A DNA stretch of 37,570 nucleotides from a virus. Location of the stretch: positions 1-37,570 of IMG/VR virus record IMGVR_UViG_3300034198_010365. One strand, 5' to 3'. Under the pieces are notes generated by a model. It worked only from the letters and a program-made list of their open reading frames with translations, was not told where the DNA came from and ran no database searches. Each line of letters begins with the position of its first letter. The first letter of the stretch is position 1. Shown here piece by piece: positions 22,828-37,369 of the stretch. The translations under genes and the position numbers were made by a program.

Positions 22828-22844
22828 TCCTTCCCTCATCCCTT

Positions 22845-22853
22845 TGTGGATAA
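22845..22853 (-). promoter_or_regulatory. Consensus DnaA box (TTATCCACA)
   Basis: TGTGGATAA on the plus strand is the exact complement of the bacterial DnaA box TTATCCACA. It is followed by a T9 tract at 22863-22871 and AT-rich DNA. A one-mismatch copy (TGATACACA) is at 22292. With two DnaA-domain-IV-like proteins in the phage, this supports an origin here. Confidence 0.45.
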
Positions 22854-22968
22854 TTTCCAAACTTTTTTTTTCGGCTGAAACCCTTTACCATCAAGGCTTT
22901 CCAAGGTTTTGCAACATTGTTGCAGAAATTATTTTTGGGTAAAGTGTTGGTAATTCGGAAAACGTTCC

Positions 22969-22976
22969 TACTTTTA
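22969..22976 (+). promoter_or_regulatory. Possible promoter of the gene-array transcript
   Basis: TACTTTTA differs from TAnnTTTG at the last base. A TTGG lies about 19 nt upstream. Transcription would begin just before the hairpin-rich region at 22980 and run into the small-gene array. Confidence 0.3.
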
Positions 22977-22979
22977 CAA

Positions 22980-23428
22980 TGTCAACGGCACGATACCCCG
23001 ATAAGGCCTAGTCCCTCTGCCGTTCGATGTAGTTCTTTTTCAGCAGGTCACAATGTGTAAGGGCAATGCACTCAGTTCCGCACTCTTTTTGAGTAATGCA
23101 CGGATGAACACCAAACCACATAAATGCACGACCTTGGTCACGATAATACTGCGAAGAGCAGCAATGTGACCCGTCCGATGATGCGGACTGCTAATAAACA
23201 TACATCCGCTGAGGGTGACAGACCGACTCTCATGCGTAAGACTCGCAGTGATGCGATGAAGGATGCGTCAAACCTGTCCATGTGGCAGTTAGGATGTTGG
23301 GTGTGACAAACCGAAAGGCTCACACTACTGCGGAAAGATGGCAAGACCACTCTGCTTAAGTGAATGCGTCTCGTGCTAATATCCGCACGACTGATGATGG
23401 CAGCGGTACTGCCGAAACGTATACACAC
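22980..23428 (+). ncRNA. Hairpin-rich region, possible structured non-coding RNA
   Basis: About 450 nt without a convincing protein gene. Stems visible by eye are AACGGCA/TGCCGTT (22984-23024), GCGGA/TCCGC near 23185-23210, GTGTGA/TCACAC near 23302-23327 and GGCAG-CGGTA-CTGCC near 23399-23413. A few tiny ATG frames occur (38 aa from 23053, 43 aa from 23178, 13 aa from 23338, 12 aa ending in the lipoprotein start), but their composition is unlike the neighbouring genes. It could be a leader or a large structured RNA of unknown class. Confidence 0.35.
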
Positions 23429-23817: not shown

Positions 23818-23858
23818 CACCCATCGGTCAAGCCGTGGCATTCGATTGCAGATGGGTG
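23818..23858 (+). ncRNA. tRNA-like minihelix E0 (degenerate)
   Basis: CACCCATC pairs with GATGGGTG (8 bp). A weak T-arm (TG, bulged G, CA / TGCA) has the loop TTCGAT. The linker is 10 nt (23826-23835) and an unpaired C follows at 23859. It starts 6 nt after a stop and ends 14 nt before an ATG, the same placement as its better relatives. The T-stem has only 4 bp. Confidence 0.45.
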
Positions 23859-23872
23859 CAAATCTTACAAAC

Positions 23873-24097
23873 ATGGCAAAGCAACACAAGACAAACGAGC
23901 AAAGGTTGATTGCTCTCGTCAAAGACAACCACCCCATCCTGAACGCGCTATTGGTTGAGCGTATCCTGTTCATTGCTGAACTTACGCACAAACAGGCCAT
24001 CGAGAATCCTGAAGCGTTCACCATTGGCGGTCTCATCCATCCTCGCCTGTACACCGAATTGTACGAACAGGTCGAAAAGCATCTTAAGGGTGAATAA
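23873..24097 (+). CDS. Small hypothetical protein (74 aa)
   Basis: 74 residues from the ATG at 23873 (MAKQHKTNEQRLIALVKDNH). The product is helical: LNALLVERILFIAELTHKQAIEN, then IGGLIHPRLYTELYEQVEKHLKGE. It is framed by minihelices E0 and E1. No family recognised. Confidence 0.65.
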   Translation: MAKQHKTNEQRLIALVKDNHPILNALLVERILFIAELTHKQAIENPEAFTIGGLIHPRLYTELYEQVEKHLKGE

Positions 24098-24104
24098 CAC
24101 CCCC

Positions 24105-24147
24105 GAACAGGATGGTCGCAGACAGGGTTCGACTCCCTGTCCTGTTC
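24105..24147 (+). ncRNA. tRNA-like minihelix E1
   Basis: GAACAGGA (24105-24112) pairs with TCCTGTTC (24140-24147). The T-arm is CAGGG-TTCGACT-CCCTG (24123-24139), giving 8+5 = 13 stacked bp. The linker TGGTCGCAGA is 10 nt, and C24148 is unpaired. There is no D-arm or anticodon arm. It starts 7 nt after a stop and ends 16 nt before the next ATG. CCCCCGAAC spans its 5' edge. Confidence 0.7.
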
Positions 24148-24163
24148 CTCAATTTTATCAATC

Positions 24164-24910
24164 ATGGCACAAAAACCGAACGGATACGTCCTGTGGCAAG
24201 GCGTATCGTCATTCGATGGCAGTCCCATTGCTGTCATCGCCACAGGTCTCGAAAGCAAGTCAACGAACGCAAAAACAGGCGCAATGGTGCAGACCTACAT
24301 CCTGCGAACGGATGTCAACCCTGTCGAAGCGGTCAAGACAGGGCAGGACGTAAGCATCTGCGGAGATTGTCGTCATCGTCCGACATTGGCTGCGCAGAGC
24401 GGAGAGGCTCGGTGCTACGTGAATGTAGGGCAGGGTGCATTGGCAGTCTACAAGGCATTTAAGCAGGGCAAATATCCTGCTGCATCAGTATCGGACATTG
24501 CACCCCTGCTGAAAGGTCGGAAGGTCAGATTCGGCACGTATGGTGACCCTGCGGTCGCTCCTGTACAGGTCTTCGCTGACCTCGCCAAGGTTGCAGACGG
24601 TCACACAGGATACACCCACAGGTGGCGAGACCAGTCATTCGATGTGGCTGCATGGTCTCCGCTCGTGATGGCATCCGTGGATGACCTGTGGGAGCAGCAG
24701 ACCGCCAAGGCTTTAGGTCTCCGATATTTTCGGGTGACCATTGGTGTCACGGAACTGCTTGACAGGGAGGTAAGATGCCCTGCTTCCGCAGAGATGGGTA
24801 AACGTACCACCTGTGTCTCATGCACCCTGTGTTCAGGCACAACAACCAAGGCAAAGAGCGTGGTTATAGCTGACCATGGGCTTGGATGGAAGTCAAGAGC
24901 GAAGGCGTAA
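24164..24910 (+). CDS. DUF7227-like phage protein (248 aa)
   Basis: 248 residues, starting MAQKPNGYVLWQGVSSFDGS. The centre has KTGAMVQTYILRTDVNPVEA, SICGDCRHR and ARCYVNVGQGALAVYKAF. A second Cys cluster near the C-terminus (RTTCVSCTLCSG) could bind metal. From memory this order matches the DUF7227 family found in phages and plasmids, whose function is not known to me. The Cys pairs suggest a zinc or iron-sulphur site. It is framed by minihelices E1 and E2. Confidence 0.75.
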   Translation: MAQKPNGYVLWQGVSSFDGSPIAVIATGLESKSTNAKTGAMVQTYILRTDVNPVEAVKTGQDVSICGDCRHRPTLAAQSGEARCYVNVGQGALAVYKAFKQGKYPAASVSDIAPLLKGRKVRFGTYGDPAVAPVQVFADLAKVADGHTGYTHRWRDQSFDVAAWSPLVMASVDDLWEQQTAKALGLRYFRVTIGVTELLDREVRCPASAEMGKRTTCVSCTLCSGTTTKAKSVVIADHGLGWKSRAKA

Positions 24911-24919
24911 GCCACCCCC

Positions 24920-24965
24920 GAACTGGCAGCATAGGGCGTAGATGGTTCGACTCCATCGCCAGTTC
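24920..24965 (+). ncRNA. tRNA-like minihelix E2
   Basis: GAACTGGC (24920-24927) pairs with GCCAGTTC (24958-24965). The T-arm is GATGG-TTCGACT-CCATC (24941-24957), 8+5 = 13 bp. The linker is 13 nt. The bases after the stem read CCA, as in a tRNA 3' end. It starts 9 nt after a stop and ends 18 nt before the next ATG. Confidence 0.7.
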
Positions 24966-24983
24966 CCACTAAACCAAAAGCAC

Positions 24984-25160
24984 ATGAACAAAGCACAGGT
25001 ACAGGCTGCTGCACGGCAGCACATCGCAGATGGACAGGTCATATCCGACCGTGACCTTGCCTTCCTAATTTGGGATGCAAGATTCGACTCCCAAATCGAA
25101 AGGGACACGGACAACGGTACGACATTATCTCACTACGAAAAATGGGTGTCAGAGTTATGA
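24984..25160 (+). CDS. Small hypothetical protein (58 aa)
   Basis: 58 residues from the ATG at 24984 (MNKAQVQAAARQHIADGQVI), helical, ending GTTLSHYEKWVSEL. Its stop overlaps the lipoprotein start by ATGA. No family recognised. Confidence 0.6.
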   Translation: MNKAQVQAAARQHIADGQVISDRDLAFLIWDARFDSQIERDTDNGTTLSHYEKWVSEL

Positions 25161-25291
25161 AAAAAGCAGCACTCTTCTGCATCATTGCAGTAATGTTCAC
25201 ATCATGCATGACCACCTATAGCAGGGTAGGGAACTGCAAGTACAAGCATCGCCCATCATTACAAAACGCCTCATGGAGGCATTTAAAATAA
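25157..25291 (+). CDS. Tiny lipoprotein (44 aa)
   Basis: 44 residues. MKKAALFCIIAVMFTSC has a Lys-rich start, a hydrophobic core and a lipobox ending F-T-S-C, the pattern of a type II signal. The short mature part is basic (YKHRPS...WRHLK). It is probably membrane-anchored; lysis or superinfection roles are possible but unproven. The 3' end holds the hairpin GCCTC-ATG-GAGGC. Confidence 0.65.
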   Translation: MKKAALFCIIAVMFTSCMTTYSRVGNCKYKHRPSLQNASWRHLK

Positions 25292-25297
25292 ACAAAA

Positions 25298-25453
25298 ATG
25301 AGAACCTACATCTTCAGCGGTATGGATGACCGCAGAGTCCAGTGGGACAACCACATCCAAGCCTCAAACCTTCGAGAGGCGATAAAGACTGCACGTTCAA
25401 TGTGCAGAAGGACAGGCTTGAGATACGGCAATGATTGTCGGAGGCTCAGGTAG
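25298..25453 (+). CDS. Small basic protein (51 aa)
   Basis: 51 residues, MRTYIFSGMDDRRVQWDNHI, then an Arg-rich C-terminal part (IKTARSMCRRTGLRYGND, CRRLR). The ATG at 25298 follows the lipoprotein stop by 6 nt with an A-rich start context. The short beta start and basic helix could bind nucleic acid. No family recognised. Confidence 0.55.
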   Translation: MRTYIFSGMDDRRVQWDNHIQASNLREAIKTARSMCRRTGLRYGNDCRRLR

Positions 25454-25459
25454 TCTCCC

Positions 25460-25505
25460 GAACTGCGAGGTAAGACCGATGATGGCTCGTCACCATCCGC
25501 AGTTC
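25460..25505 (+). ncRNA. tRNA-like minihelix E3 (variant loop)
   Basis: GAACTGCG (25460-25467) pairs with CGCAGTTC (25498-25505). The T-arm stem is GATGG/CCATC as in E2, but the loop is CTCGTCA instead of TTCGACT. 8+5 = 13 bp, 13-nt linker, unpaired C25506. It starts 6 nt after a stop. The gap to the next ATG is 33 nt, longer than for the others. Confidence 0.6.
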
Positions 25506-25538
25506 CTAAACGTTGCCGAATCGTAATCGGATACACAC

Positions 25539-25994
25539 ATGGTATTCTACGAATCAGAACTGGCAGAGGCTATGCTTAACGCCATAGCAGACGGACACAG
25601 CGCTGCGGATGCAAAGAACGACATCAAGGTATTTCAGGAGGCGGTCAATCTGCTGCCCAAGTACAACACCCCCGAACTGAAGTCTTTCCTGCTGAAAAAA
25701 CTCATGCCAAATTCCCCAAGCACGGAGTATGAATTGTTTGAGTCTATCGCAAAATTGGATGAGGGTTGGTTCATTGCCTTGCAAATACCCACATTCGACT
25801 CAACCTATCGCATTGAGAGGTGCGACGAAAAGAAGGTATTCAAGAGTGACAATGACGCAATAAGGCACGTGTGGGAGAAGGCAAAGCAAAAGTCCAAGGT
25901 ACACCTTGACACCATCGTGTTTATGATGCAACACGGCAGCGCACACGAGATGGATTTCATTGTAAACGCACTAAACAAAACCAATAAAGCATAA
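25539..25994 (+). CDS. Hypothetical protein (151 aa)
   Basis: 151 residues, starting MVFYESELAEAMLNAIADGH, largely helical, with FALQIP-like strands in the middle (GWFIALQIPTFDSTYRIERC) and a helical C-terminus. It follows E3. A CCCCCGAAC copy encodes Thr-Pro-Glu-Leu near residue 45. No family recognised. Confidence 0.65.
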   Translation: MVFYESELAEAMLNAIADGHSAADAKNDIKVFQEAVNLLPKYNTPELKSFLLKKLMPNSPSTEYELFESIAKLDEGWFIALQIPTFDSTYRIERCDEKKVFKSDNDAIRHVWEKAKQKSKVHLDTIVFMMQHGSAHEMDFIVNALNKTNKA

Positions 25995-25998
25995 GCAC

Positions 25999-26412
25999 AT
26001 GGACTATTCATTCTTCCTGTTCTCCATGCTCTACCGTGAGGTGGTAGACTCCGATAGCGAACACGATGCAGCCTTCGAGCGTATCAAGGAACTGTACGAC
26101 CAGTACATGACCATCCACATCGATGACACTCATAAGTCCGACCATGACAACATGGTGGAATTCCTTAAGAAGGAACGCCCTGCCCTGCTCATGTTAAGCC
26201 CTGCTGCGGTACGGTCAGAGTTGAAGGCAGCAGGGTATATCCCTGTCCTGTGGACGTGGCAGGATGTCAGGGATGTCGCCAAGTCGAAGCACATCCATAT
26301 AAGCGGTCGGCATATTGCCAAGGTGGTTGACTACATCGTAGAAAACCATGACGCCAATGTAGGTATCACATGGGGTGTCGTCAGTGATGCGATTGATGCG
26401 GTCATAAAGTGA
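25999..26412 (+). CDS. Hypothetical protein with C-terminal helical domain (137 aa)
   Basis: 137 residues. The N-terminal half is acidic and helical (MDYSFFLFSMLYREVVDS). The C-terminal half, WTWQDVRDVAKSKHIHISGR...VDYIVENHDANVGITW, is a domain I recall in many Bacteroidota phage proteins, possibly helix-turn-helix-like. It starts 4 nt after the previous stop and is followed by minihelix E4. Confidence 0.65.
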   Translation: MDYSFFLFSMLYREVVDSDSEHDAAFERIKELYDQYMTIHIDDTHKSDHDNMVEFLKKERPALLMLSPAAVRSELKAAGYIPVLWTWQDVRDVAKSKHIHISGRHIAKVVDYIVENHDANVGITWGVVSDAIDAVIK

Positions 26413-26418
26413 CCCCCC

Positions 26419-26461
26419 GAACTGGAATGGTTGCAGGTCTGTTCGATTCAGACCCCAGTTC
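26419..26461 (+). ncRNA. tRNA-like minihelix E4
   Basis: GAACTGG (26419-26425) pairs with CCAGTTC (26455-26461). The T-arm GGTCTG-TTCGATT-CAGACC (26436-26454) has 6 bp, so 7+6 = 13 bp. The linker AATGGTTGCA is 10 nt, and C26462 is unpaired. It starts 6 nt after a stop and ends 15 nt before an ATG. Confidence 0.7.
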
Positions 26462-26476
26462 CTTAAACTTAACCGT

Positions 26477-26716
26477 ATGTATACAATCATCCTGTGCCGA
26501 AGAGAGGCACATCAGAAGGCTCGTGTTTTCAAGTTCAGCACCCCCGACCCACGCAAAGCATTCGCCAATTACAACGACTGGCTTGAGCGTGAGGTCATGG
26601 CAATCTCCGGCAGGGTGAAGGTCGGCATCACGACTCGCCTGTCTATCCTTGAGGGTAGTAAAGTCATCAAGCAAATTCGTCTTCAAACAATAAAAACAAA
26701 CCGAGTTCAGCGGTAA
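26477..26716 (+). CDS. Small hypothetical protein (79 aa)
   Basis: 79 residues, starting MYTIILCRREAHQKARVFKF, a small basic alpha/beta protein ending in Lys/Arg-rich helices. A simple hairpin GTTCAG-CGGTAA-CTGAAC spans its stop codon (26704-26721), 10 nt before the next ATG; this could be a reduced boundary element. No family recognised. Confidence 0.65.
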   Translation: MYTIILCRREAHQKARVFKFSTPDPRKAFANYNDWLEREVMAISGRVKVGITTRLSILEGSKVIKQIRLQTIKTNRVQR

Positions 26717-26731
26717 CTGAACACGACAATC

Positions 26732-27640
26732 ATGGATGCTAACAACATCATCCAGTCCGCATTCTCCGGACTGACGACCAAAGATTCCGCCAATGCCGAG
26801 GCGGTAGCAGAGATGCTTGAGAGGTTCGGCTTACGCTGGGACGTGCAGAAGGAGTCCCTGCTGCTGCCCGATGGCGCAGATTCAGGGTACTACGCAGTCG
26901 TCCGACAAGACAACCGCACACCCTTCACCGCAGTCAAGTACACCTACCACCCCTATCAGAATTCCGAACTGGCGGAACTGCTCATCCGTGTGTCGGAGAA
27001 GACAGGGTACGCCATTCAGAACGGTGGTATGTTCAACGGTGGGGCGAAGGTGTACCTCCAGTTGGAGACAGGCAACTCAATCTCCGGCATCGGTAAGCGT
27101 GGCGACAGGGTTTTAGGCTACGCCACCGCCATCAACTCCCATGACGGCACGACCGCCCTTCGGTGGGGATCGTCCAACATCACCATCTCCTGCAAGAACA
27201 CGTTCGCCAAGGCGTACAAGACCCTTGCAAATTCCGTCCGTCACTCGCACTCTATCAGAGACAAGGTTGAAGAGTCCCTGCGCAGCATCGACCATGTACT
27301 GACCGATGAGAGGCTCGTGTTCGACGGGTTCATGAACATGGCGTCCCGACCTGCCCTTGGCACGGATATCGTGAAGGTGGTCAAGCACATCACTGGCGTG
27401 GACATGAAGGACAAGAGCGAGTCCACTACTTATGCTCGGAACAGGGCATCGGAACTGCTCTCGTCCATCACCACCGAGATGGAGAGCAAGGGCGACACCA
27501 TGTGGGGATTGTTCAGTGGCGTGACCCACTACACCTCGCACAAGATTCCTGCACCGAAGCGTGACAACGGACGGCTTGAGTCCAAGTTCATCGGCTCGGG
27601 GGCTGCTATCGACAACGACATATTCGCCATTCTAAACTAA
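26732..27640 (+). CDS. DUF932 family phage/plasmid protein
   Basis: 302 residues, starting MDANNIIQSAFSGLTTKDSA. It has DSGYYAVVRQDNRTPFTAVK, a Gly-rich NGGMFNGGAKVYLQLE, and DRVLGYATAINSHDGTTALR followed by SSNITISCKNTFAKA. This order is that of the DUF932 (TIGR03299-like) family common in phages and plasmids. No biochemical role is established that I know of; links to recombination have been suggested by context. Length is near the family norm. E5 begins within its TAA stop. Confidence 0.85.
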   Translation: MDANNIIQSAFSGLTTKDSANAEAVAEMLERFGLRWDVQKESLLLPDGADSGYYAVVRQDNRTPFTAVKYTYHPYQNSELAELLIRVSEKTGYAIQNGGMFNGGAKVYLQLETGNSISGIGKRGDRVLGYATAINSHDGTTALRWGSSNITISCKNTFAKAYKTLANSVRHSHSIRDKVEESLRSIDHVLTDERLVFDGFMNMASRPALGTDIVKVVKHITGVDMKDKSESTTYARNRASELLSSITTEMESKGDTMWGLFSGVTHYTSHKIPAPKRDNGRLESKFIGSGAAIDNDIFAILN

Positions 27641-27682
27641 AGCAGATTGGATACAGGTGGGGTTCGACCCCCCACCCTGCTT
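27640..27682 (+). ncRNA. tRNA-like minihelix E5
   Basis: AAGCAG (27640-27645) pairs with CTGCTT (27677-27682). The T-arm GGTGGGG-TTCGACC-CCCCACC (27656-27676) has 7 bp, so 6+7 = 13 bp. The linker ATTGGATACA is 10 nt, and C27683 is unpaired. The first pair uses the last base of the preceding stop. It ends 16 nt before the next ATG. Confidence 0.65.
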
Positions 27683-27698
27683 CTTTAAACCAATACAT

Positions 27699-27962
27699 AT
27701 GCCTAAAGGAAAGAACGTTGCCATCCTCGTGTGGTGGGAGGCAACTGCGGCATTCATTATGCCAAACCCATCCACAACATCCCTTGAGAAAGGTCTTGCC
27801 GAGTTCCTTGGCGGGAAGGTGCAGTGCCTTGACGAGGTCGAGCGCATCGACTTCCGGCACACGCAGACCGCAGAGGTCAGGGTGTTCGTCACGGACGATG
27901 CCGACCCCTTGGACGACGTGCCGTACCATATCGTAGAGATGACCCCATTATCAACCTATTAA
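27699..27962 (+). CDS. Hypothetical protein (87 aa)
   Basis: 87 residues from the ATG at 27699 (MPKGKNVAILVWWEATAAFI), a probable alpha/beta domain with a basic start and acidic C-terminal half (VFVTDDADPLDDVPYHIVE). It follows E5. No family recognised. Confidence 0.65.
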   Translation: MPKGKNVAILVWWEATAAFIMPNPSTTSLEKGLAEFLGGKVQCLDEVERIDFRHTQTAEVRVFVTDDADPLDDVPYHIVEMTPLSTY

Positions 27963-27972
27963 AACCAAGACA

Positions 27973-28236
27973 ATGGTAGACTACCTTATCATGGCACTCG
28001 CCCTGTGTGGCCTGTACCTGTTGGGCATGGCGCTCATCACCCGAGCATGTCGCAAGCAAGAGTTCGACAGAGAGTACAAGTGGCTCGTCAGGCACATCGA
28101 GTCCATGTCGGAAGATCAAGCCGACACCGCTATCATCAACTTCTCTGACAGGTGGGAGGGTCATATCAACCACTTCTCCCTGTCGTTTCATATCAGCCGC
28201 CTTGTCAGGCTACGGCTGAACAAAAGATTTCGTTAG
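27973..28236 (+). CDS. Small membrane protein (87 aa)
   Basis: 87 residues. One N-terminal membrane segment (LIMALALCGLYLLGMALIT) is followed by a charged helical part (KQEFDREYKWLVRHIESMSE) that probably faces the cytoplasm. It could be a membrane-anchored regulator or a lysis accessory, but it has no diagnostic motif. Confidence 0.65.
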   Translation: MVDYLIMALALCGLYLLGMALITRACRKQEFDREYKWLVRHIESMSEDQADTAIINFSDRWEGHINHFSLSFHISRLVRLRLNKRFR

Positions 28237-28277
28237 CCATGACTGACCCCCGAGCCTGTCTAGGTATAAGGGGACTT

Positions 28278-28323
28278 TGCAGGGGATGGTCACTCTCGGA
28301 TGGTTCGACTCCGTCCCCCTGCA
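28278..28323 (+). ncRNA. tRNA-like minihelix E6
   Basis: TGCAGGG (28278-28284) pairs with CCCTGCA (28317-28323). The T-arm GGATGG-TTCGACT-CCGTCC (28298-28316) has 6 bp with one G.U, so 7+6 = 13 bp. The linker is 13 nt, and C28324 is unpaired. It lies 41 nt after a stop (a CCCCCGAGC copy is in that gap) and 14 nt before an ATG. Confidence 0.65.
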
Positions 28324-28337
28324 CTCAATCTTTAACA

Positions 28338-28587
28338 ATGCAAAACCAAACATTCAATGAGTGGATCACCTACATCTACCGAGAGGCCGGTTGGCCAGAG
28401 CATCGCATCGCCCAGTACGACACAGGCAAAGAAAGTAAAGGCGATATTCCGAGAAGTAGACCGTGCGCTCCGTGCCTTGGAAGGAATGCCACTGGCTCGG
28501 AGAAAGCAGACAGTCAAAGACCTGCTCGTCATCAACGAGGAACTGTGTGACCTGTTCATCGAAAAACTATTCACAAATGACAAATGA
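28338..28587 (+). CDS. Small protein in two overlapping frames (possible frameshift)
   Basis: From the ATG at 28338 the frame reads MQNQTFNEWITYIYREAGWP and looks natural for about 30 codons, then turns Arg/Cys/Pro-rich. The +1 frame has an ATG at 28357 and becomes natural after about 28420 (KAIFREVDRALRALEGMPLA, then KQTVKDLLVINEELCDLFIE), ending at 28587. Either one ~82-residue protein is made by a +1 (or -2) shift near the A-rich GGCAAAGAAAGTAAAGG stretch, or a one-base indel broke the gene, or two overlapping genes exist. The product is helical with unknown function. Confidence 0.55.
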
Positions 28588-28933
28588 AATCTTCACGTTC
28601 TTCAACGAACGTCTGATCGAAAAGTACGGTATCGATGTGACCGCATCCCGAAGCAGGGAGCAGCCACGCCCTACCATGCGCAGGGCTTTGGTCAACATCA
28701 TGTACCGAATGTATGGGTACACGGATGAGTACATCTCCAAACTGCTGAACCTCGACCGAAGCACGGTTCACACCCACCGCAGCAGTCACGACAACGACAT
28801 CCGCCACTTCAACCTGTACATCGAGATATACGAGTTCCTTGAGAGTGCGTCTCAGGAGAAGGCCTCGTACATCAACATGGATGAGGTATTCAGTAACATC
28901 AAATCCTTACGAGATGAAGGTCAGCTTCTTTGA
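28577..28933 (+). CDS. DnaA domain IV-like DNA-binding protein (118 aa)
   Basis: 118 residues from the ATG at 28577. RRALVNIMYRMYGYTDEYIS, then KLLNLDRSTVHTHRSSHDND, resembles the helix-turn-helix and signature (D/R)HSTV..H of DnaA domain IV, which reads DnaA boxes. There is no AAA+ part. It could regulate origin use or transcription through DnaA-box-like sites; one consensus box is at 22845. It overlaps the previous gene by 11 nt and the recombinase by 20 nt. Confidence 0.65.
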   Translation: MTNEIFTFFNERLIEKYGIDVTASRSREQPRPTMRRALVNIMYRMYGYTDEYISKLLNLDRSTVHTHRSSHDNDIRHFNLYIEIYEFLESASQEKASYINMDEVFSNIKSLRDEGQLL

Positions 28934-30170
28934 CAGCAGGGGTGTGGTTCACGCCCTCGTCACCGACAAGGGAGAGCGTGTCAGGCTCTCTATGGATATC
29001 AAGGTCAGCCCCTACACGTTCAAGGGCAGGTTCGTTGGCAAGGGTGAGAAGATAGAACACCTGAACCACGAACTGGAGAGGCGCAGGGTTCTCCTTGGGG
29101 ACATCTGCATCAAGTACGGTGTGCATATGGTACGCACTGCGTACTCCCCCGAGCCGACCAAGTGGGAGGCAGGGACTGACGTTGCCAAGCTATGTCAGGA
29201 GTACATCGAGGGCATGAGGGGCGCAGACATCCGAACCAAGGGCGCAAAGCAGTTCTCCTTGGCGTCCATCAACACCTACGCTGACGCAGCCAACTGCCTG
29301 TCCAAGTTTATGTCCCAGTACGAGTTCGAGAACGGCAGCAGGTTCGATATCCGGCTCTTCAACCTCGAGCTGAAGGAGAAGGCGGTGTCGTCATGGAACA
29401 AGATGTTCCGCAGGTTCGAGGACTTTATGGTTGACAGGGGTATGTCGGTCAGATCCCGACAGAACTACATCAATCAGATCGGCATCATGCTCCGGTACTG
29501 GGGCGAACATATGTTCATCCCCCTGCCGAAGACTCCGTCAGTGCTGAAGGCGGAGAAGGATGTGATAGCCCTGCCCCCATCGTTTATCTCGGAGTTCTTC
29601 AACTCCCCCCGACCCGACGACGATGAGCAGCGTATGGTGTGGGAGATTGCCGCCATCATCCTCGCCACCACCCTGCGTATCAGTGACGTCATGAGCCTGA
29701 CACCGAACGACTTCAGCCACGACTTCAAGCACATCCGCAAGGTGTTGAGCAAGACCGGAACATGCTCCATGCCGATGCCATCTGCGCTTACGGATATTCT
29801 TATCGAGAACATGGCGAAGGGTGGATGGTTGTTCACCTGCCTACCGAACAGGACGTCCGTGTACAGGCATCTCCGGCAAATGATGTCCAAGTATCCATCC
29901 CTCCGGCAGATGGTAACCTTCACAGCTCAAGACATACACGGCAAGAAGGTAACGGAGCGGATGCCGTACTGGATGGTTGTCACGCCACACGTTCTGCGCA
30001 AGACCGCCATCACATCGATGCTGTACGCAGGTGTCAGCCACATCCATGTCCGCCATGCTTCAGGGCATAGCCAGTCATCCAAATCGTTTTGGCAGTACGT
30101 CAAGGTGGTCGATGACCTGTACGAGAAGGAGATGACCGAAGCGCATCGCAAAATGGGGATAAGTATATGA
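28914..30170 (+). CDS. Tyrosine recombinase / integrase
   Basis: 418 residues from the ATG at 28914. An N-terminal Arm-like domain is followed by a SAM-like core-binding domain (about 85-205). The catalytic domain has TTLRISDVMSL (Arg255), TPHVLRKTAITSML (His359, Arg362), a SGHS segment (His385) and SFWQYV (nucleophile Tyr395). All key residues are present, so strand exchange activity is likely. It suggests a temperate phage, or a recombinase serving the gene array just upstream. A strong terminator follows directly. Confidence 0.88.
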   Translation: MKVSFFDSRGVVHALVTDKGERVRLSMDIKVSPYTFKGRFVGKGEKIEHLNHELERRRVLLGDICIKYGVHMVRTAYSPEPTKWEAGTDVAKLCQEYIEGMRGADIRTKGAKQFSLASINTYADAANCLSKFMSQYEFENGSRFDIRLFNLELKEKAVSSWNKMFRRFEDFMVDRGMSVRSRQNYINQIGIMLRYWGEHMFIPLPKTPSVLKAEKDVIALPPSFISEFFNSPRPDDDEQRMVWEIAAIILATTLRISDVMSLTPNDFSHDFKHIRKVLSKTGTCSMPMPSALTDILIENMAKGGWLFTCLPNRTSVYRHLRQMMSKYPSLRQMVTFTAQDIHGKKVTERMPYWMVVTPHVLRKTAITSMLYAGVSHIHVRHASGHSQSSKSFWQYVKVVDDLYEKEMTEAHRKMGISI

Positions 30171-36826: not shown

Positions 36827-36915
36827 CCCCCGGATGGCGTAAGCGAAAATGAATATCGCTGAAAAGGTAGCGTGTCGCATAGCGATAGGTGCGGGTTCGA
36901 CTCCCGCTCCGGGGG
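36827..36915 (+). ncRNA. Long tRNA-like element E7 (89 nt)
   Basis: CCCCCGGA pairs with TCCGGGGG (8 bp). The T-arm is GCGGG-TTCGACT-CCCGC (36891-36907), 13 bp in total, and C36916 is unpaired. The 56-nt middle (36835-36890) begins TGG like the other linkers. It can form TATCGCT/AGCGATA (7 bp, 20-nt loop) but no 5-bp/7-nt anticodon arm. It starts 5 nt after a stop and ends 13 nt before an ATG. Confidence 0.65.
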
Positions 36916-37264: not shown

Positions 37265-37369
37265 TTGCGGGATGGCGAAATTGGTAAACGCCCTTAGGGC
37301 AGTTAACGGAGAGTGGGAGAGCAACTCGCGACAATGCCCCCAATGCAGGTTCGATTCCTGCTCCCGCAA
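37265..37369 (+). ncRNA. Long tRNA-like element E8 with D-arm, no clear anticodon arm
   Basis: TTGCGGGA pairs with TCCCGCAA (8 bp). T-arm GCAGG-TTCGATT-CCTGC (37345-37361), 13 bp in total, unpaired C37370. A tRNA-like D-arm GCG-AAATTGGTAAA-CGC with the conserved GG follows TG. Instead of an anticodon arm there is a long imperfect arm closed by GGGCA/TGCCC (37297-37301/37335-37339). T5 follows directly. It is closest to a tRNA-Leu layout, but no amino-acid identity can be assigned. Confidence 0.6.

Follow-up and report, generated by a model that had tools for sequence, protein, structure and literature searches.

Compact tRNA-like elements between early phage genes as candidate intercistronic RNA-processing sites

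The window analysed here, the whole stretch of 37,570 bases at positions 1 to 37,570 of IMG/VR virus record IMGVR_UViG_3300034198_010365, carries seven structured elements (E0–E6) between small early genes on the + strand, spanning 23818–28323. A first-pass annotation, made from the letters alone, had described them at these positions as a family of minihelices with an acceptor stem and a T-arm only, and the placement was borne out. They are given below with the unpaired C that follows every acceptor and with the next start codon (nt, nucleotides; bp, base pairs).

E0, 23818..23858, + strand: class D, 41 nt; 8-bp acceptor (CACCCATC/GATGGGTG), mini-hairpin, 3-bp stem with hexaloop TTCGAT; C at 23859; next ATG at 23873.
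E1, 24105..24147, + strand: class A, 43 nt; preceded by CCCCC; C at 24148; ATG at 24164.
E2, 24920..24965, + strand: class B, 46 nt; preceded by CCCCC; C at 24966; ATG at 24984.
E3, 25460..25505, + strand: class B, 46 nt; loop CTCGTCA; C at 25506; leader hairpin; ATG at 25539.
E4, 26419..26461, + strand: class A, 43 nt; preceded by CCCCCC; C at 26462; ATG at 26477.
E5, 27640..27682, + strand: class A2 (linker ATTGGATACA), 43 nt; C at 27683; ATG at 27699.
E6, 28278..28323, + strand: class A-like with a 13-nt linker, 46 nt; loop TTCGACT; C at 28324; ATG at 28338.

A strict stem-and-loop descriptor matched exactly E1–E6 on the + strand and nothing on the − strand of the window, and most of 20 shuffles gave no match. 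As first described, the two stems of E1–E6 sum to 13 bp (8+5, 7+6 or 6+7), linkers are 10 or 13 nt and five of the loops read TTCGAYY; an E7 and E8 had also been mentioned, and no further full elements were found in the window. The grouping into one family held for a shared frame, within which E2 and E3 form a separate class with a mini-hairpin in the linker and E0 a third. E0 was assigned by sequence comparison with the same design in relatives and by its fold, outside the covariance models; E6 has a competing minimum-energy fold and gave the weakest covariance-model match.

Pattern scans of viral contigs and relatives turned up some 80 different elements, with their gene context, from about 20 related genomes (the element finder and the open reading frame (ORF) rules in our scripts are simple, and all counts are approximate). 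Class A (E1 and E4, with E5 as the A2 form) measures 43–45 nt, has the loop TTCGAYT in nearly all members and a linker N-ATGGT-N' in which N and N' covary (A-U, G-C, C-G, U-A). Class B (E2 and E3; 46 nt) contains a 2–3 bp hairpin inside the linker, which is 13 nt long in E2 and E3, and a loop with an invariant CG; in a further form of 44 nt the linker AGAGTGGATAA pairs with the loop AGCGATA. Class C (45–48 nt) has a linker hairpin of 4–5 bp and a loop of the TTCGTGA type, and class D (41 nt) is that of E0. The outer frame is common to all classes and holds at least four interior designs. Pairing was kept in 97.4% of cells in class A, with 263 double changes versus 58 shuffled and a covariation score of 0.83 versus 0.15, and covariation was similar in the first alignment and in one without window sequences; in class B, 97.6% of cells were paired, with 57 double changes versus 20. 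Every one of the 60 distinct class A rows closes the T-loop with G-C, like G53:C61 of tRNA, and a GG in the linker is conserved in the family. Conserved bases gather at the elbow, one helix length away from the cut proposed below.

Two covariance models were built without any window sequence, R2 from 32 class A and R3 from 14 class B sequences. R2 recovered E4 (2.6e-16), E1 (3.4e-10), E5 (2.5e-5), E6 (1.7e-4) and also E2, and R3 recovered E3 (7e-25) and E2 (1e-22); beyond these, the models matched nothing in the window but the T-arms, at 36891 and 37345, of two odd tRNA genes. Model R1 matched 27 of 49 records, its strong matches forming single-strand clusters, and R3 matched 22 of 41. No full element was matched in 98 unrelated viral loci (0.89 Mb), R1 found none in the phages elemoE, phi13:2 and Calle_1 or in seven other named-phage records, and blastn with one element against named phages returned nothing useful. 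A search of bacterial genomes with the GAACTG form gave ten matches, of which only one, in L246, resembles the family; this 5.3-kb contig, binned with a Streptomycetaceae metagenome-assembled genome, carries a hammerhead ribozyme too and is probably a phage contig. Chance origin of the elements is ruled out by the shuffles, the independent models and the 98 unrelated loci. Among the outcomes that would refute its proposal, the first-pass annotation had named a lack of structural homologues in related phages and of covariation; homologues and covariation were both found, and its view of the elements as a class of minimal tRNA mimics made by phages is strongly supported.

We compared the elements with known RNA families. 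Identity with ordinary tRNA (RF00005) was rejected, ARAGORN and Rfam giving no match at E0–E6; with a linker of only 10–13 nt there is no anticodon arm. A T-arm of the tRNA type (TTCRANY loop, G53:C61 closure) is present in class A and absent from the loops of classes B and C. At permissive E-values Rfam returned only mascRNA-menRNA (RF01684), on E1 alone and below threshold (23.9 bits, E 0.15; gathering score 42.5 bits). mascRNA is likewise tRNA-like, and RNase P and RNase Z release it from its longer precursor, whereas the mascRNA/menRNA family belongs to mammalian long non-coding RNAs, has a further arm and lies at a transcript 3' end, not between cistrons. A description of such elements, or of tRNA mimicry used as cut sites in phage mRNA, was not found in the open-access papers searched or in Rfam 15 (preprints were outside the search), in agreement with the earlier statement that no described phage equivalent was known.

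The gene context of the elements is regular. Among 89 strict matches, 88 shared their cluster's strand and 83 had an ORF start within 90 nt downstream. The common layout is a stop codon, 6–7 nt ending in CCCCC, the element, C, 18–20 nt and ATG; the distance from element end to ATG was 18–20 nt in 47 of 78 elements, and that from stop to element 6–7 nt in 37 of 78. Elements that lack CCCCC often have their 5' acceptor strand overlapping or touching the stop codon (TAA or TGA), with matching changes in the 3' strand. Such overlap or abutment was seen in ~10 of 78 elements and likewise in the unrelated contig L326; in the window, E5 shares its first base with the TAA stop (27638–27640) of the upstream DUF932 gene. 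The bases after the element are mostly CTC, CTA or CTT, and CCA in 3 of 78. The motif CCCCCGA, or a shorter form of it, follows stop codons, for example at 24100–24104, 24915–24919 and 26413–26418, and also precedes hammerheads in L072, L217, L255 and L268; because it is present whichever element type comes next, it may have a function of its own.

In relatives, the equivalent gaps hold hammerhead ribozymes, which share both cluster and strand with the elements. Type I and type III hammerheads were seen in intercistronic gaps of L014, L072, L087, L216, L217, L246, L253, L255, L264 and L268, and both types are common between phage genes. The type I form reads GGTTAA-CUGANGAG...CGAAA...GUC, then the cut, then UUAACC; it matched RAGATH-1 weakly (E 0.72) and was called from its complete core and pairing. 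One type III form scored 44.3 bits (E 1.6e-8) against Rfam Hammerhead_3, just below the gathering score. Of 20 related records, 14 carried the core pattern, as did the cultured Flavobacterium phage elemoE, with two cores, and the reversed-pattern control gave a single match in the entire search; no core (CUGANGA ... GAAA ... NUH) was found in E0–E6 or elsewhere in the window. Re-measured in the related records, the type I cut lies 19, 19, 19, 19, 20 and 22 nt from the ATG (one more had no ORF start in range), so that the spacing agrees with that of the elements when counted from the cut site (~19 nt) and not from the structure edge (~13 nt). In a wider scan, type I hammerheads turned up in at least 120 viral stretches (L272 onward), and of 132 distinct ones 107 have their cut site 18–26 nt ahead of an ORF start. 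The upstream stop codon mostly ends within the ribozyme; in 1 of 131 it lies past the cut. Five class A matches (E 4e-5 or better) were found in 4 of 77 hammerhead loci outside the family (L346, L326 twice, L347 and L290), each on the strand of its locus's hammerheads. A hammerhead of haloviruses HF1/HF2 lies 13 nt ahead of a start codon (PMC3088659). Phage hammerheads (Hammerhead_3 and RAGATH-1 in Rfam) resemble the elements in slot and in cut-to-ATG distance, and differ in being self-cleaving with a known core that the mini-tRNAs lack.

The two kinds of structure were found to replace each other beside homologous genes. A gene after a hammerhead in L217 and one after a class A element in L257 are 79% identical (57 amino acids, aa); downstream genes of L246 and L252 are 54% identical over 145 aa, upstream genes of L216 (hammerhead) and L410 (tRNA-like) 71% identical, and upstream genes of L014 and L261 45% identical over 47 aa, the first and last of these three comparisons likewise setting a hammerhead in one against a tRNA-like element in the other. 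This exchange at orthologous slots is the main argument for a shared function of hammerheads and mini-tRNAs. Because hammerheads are RNA cutters, that function would most simply be cleavage between genes, and we conclude that the elements are probably intercistronic RNA-processing sites.

Our favoured reading, drawn from sequence comparison and held with moderate confidence, is that the elements are punctuation in polycistronic early mRNA, cut at the 3' edge, most likely by host RNase Z. Acceptor and T-stem would stack as one helix of 12–13 bp, the minimal top half of a tRNA, with one or more G residues of a rudimentary D-loop probably docking on a T-loop base equivalent to C56. The elbow would be bound by an enzyme of host tRNA maturation, RNase Z most likely, which would measure along the helix and cut at its 3' edge just before or just after the conserved C. 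The mRNA of the next gene would be freed with a short A-rich 5' leader (~19 nt for a cut before the C, ~18 nt for one after it), and the mini-tRNA would stay as the structured 3' end of the upstream mRNA, with possible effects on stability or translation; at other slots hammerheads would do the same. A small extra hairpin follows some elements directly (leader 25507–25538 in the window; L326, L346 and L290), and would form the 5' end of the downstream mRNA if the 3' cut occurs. An enzyme that acts as a ruler, RNase P or RNase Z, fits because the elbow is conserved, the helix is of fixed length with compensated sequence and the C is fixed. A 3' cut is favoured because it explains why the 5' strand can hold a stop codon; type I hammerheads, which cut on their 3' side, show the same tolerance. 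The elements share a trait of RNase Z substrates, an acceptor/T-arm helix without CCA behind it; RNase Z was found in a Bacteroides control genome, and the window has no gene for it.

Several observations weigh against this assignment. The paired helix is 13 bp rather than 12 in most elements, class B and C loops are non-canonical as T-loops, and a C just after the proposed cut may affect RNase Z of these hosts. G-U pairs are rare (10 of ~800 cells), as they would be in a hairpin formed by DNA. The swap pairs depend on short proteins, and type III hammerheads, which cut 5', also sit in some slots, so the hammerhead analogy alone does not fix the cut side. A conserved CCCCCGAA leader is not accounted for. 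As regards the earlier proposal that the elements recruit tRNA enzymes to mRNA, a role as processing sites is supported by the hammerheads in the same slots, and tRNA enzymes are inferred to act there.

The first-pass annotation had pointed to RNase P as well, and RNase P, alone or with RNase Z, might cut the 5' edge, the element leaving as a small RNA or capping the 5' end of the downstream mRNA; we regard this as possible but rather unlikely. RNase P accepts acceptor/T-stem helices, element base 1 is usually G, the leader is single-stranded, the C at position 74 could pair with RNase P RNA, and the 5'-cutting type III hammerheads share slots with the elements. Substrates listed for RNase P include the M3 and C4 RNAs of phages and certain mRNAs (PMC11143913); these (M3 RNA, C4 antisense RNA, sites in polycistronic mRNA) are likewise tRNA-like and occur in phage or polycistronic RNA, but are single cases and form no repeated intercistronic family with fixed stop and start spacing. 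RNase P is less favoured as the main enzyme because, in most of the elements with a stop codon at the 5' strand, cutting there would strip the stop from the upstream message and yield nonstop mRNA, and because there is no RCCA end to assist RNase P; the leader is also C-rich instead of having U at −1.

That the elements stay uncut, as structural or protein-binding units insulating the next gene or setting up its translation at a fixed distance from the ATG, appears improbable. The tight 18–20 nt spacing would suit such a role, and Bacteroidota seldom use Shine-Dalgarno sites, but hammerheads replace the elements at orthologous slots, and type I hammerheads keep the spacing from the cut rather than from the structure. 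More doubtful still is that the elements are ribozymes of a new kind and cleave themselves, as do the hammerheads found in their place. The interchange and the existence of several compact designs would agree with this; however, only the C is conserved near the element ends, the acceptor helix changes compensatorily with the conserved loops one full helix away, and four or five unrelated ribozymes would be required in one frame. Folded DNA recombination sites that shuffle small early genes, in the manner of integron attC, are hardly credible: gene-plus-element modules, a repeated outer boundary, the few G-U pairs and a nearby integrase (tyrosine recombinase gene, 28839–30170) recall them, but boundary sequences vary with compensation, loops show conservation of the tRNA type, RNA ribozymes substitute for the elements, and attC identity itself was rejected, the R''/R' boxes RYYYAAC and GTTRRRY being absent from the element ends (usually CCCGAAC and GTTCCTC).

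Returning to cleavage by RNase Z, two known systems offer comparison. In mitochondria, tRNAs between genes mark RNase P and RNase Z cuts that release mRNAs from polycistronic RNA. The phage elements are similarly tRNA-like structures between genes, but they mimic the acceptor/T-arm only, have no anticodon arm and are interchangeable with hammerheads, and their cutting is proposed. In the T7 early region, RNase III sites split the early mRNA between genes; these too are a series of intercistronic structures in phage early mRNA, whereas the T7 hairpins serve RNase III and are without tRNA features. On a wider scale, we suggest tentatively that tRNA mimics of 41–48 nt, in at least four elbow designs, serve tailed phages as a general intercistronic processing code; host RNase Z would read it, and over evolutionary time the mimics and hammerheads would have traded places. 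If so, phages would split their mRNAs with borrowed tRNA-maturation enzymes and self-cleaving RNAs interchangeably, a bacterial-virus counterpart to mitochondrial tRNA punctuation, and intercistronic phage hammerheads would gain a natural function. The elements would also provide a collection of naturally occurring minimal substrates of RNase Z (or P), and small RNA-cutting parts with which to build operons in Bacteroidota. With its alternative elbow designs in one frame, the family is moreover a natural test of which features a tRNA elbow requires.

The portal and terminase of the window match PHROG families. Close relatives of the terminase are further uncultured contigs (49–76% identity), and the nearest named phages, with ~33% or less terminase identity, infect Flavobacterium, Cellulophaga and Bacteroides, for which reason the host is probably a member of the Bacteroidota, as are probably the hosts of the phages carrying the element family. 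Upstream of the element cluster, ~600 bases at 22830–23410 are apparently mostly non-coding, and may hold the early promoter and leader; the L267 cluster, too, has such a stretch ahead of it. Directly ahead of E6, 28241–28277 holds CCCCCGAGCCTGTCTAGGTATAAGGGG, like a degenerate terminator hairpin, of which a fuller version with a T run occurs in L252. Of the two odd tRNA genes, that at 36828–36915 (+) is tRNA-like with a two-base anticodon assigned by ARAGORN, and that at ~37269–37368 (+) resembles a class II tRNA with extra bases and was uncalled by ARAGORN; neither encodes CCA. L264 and L266 carry a similarly odd tRNA.

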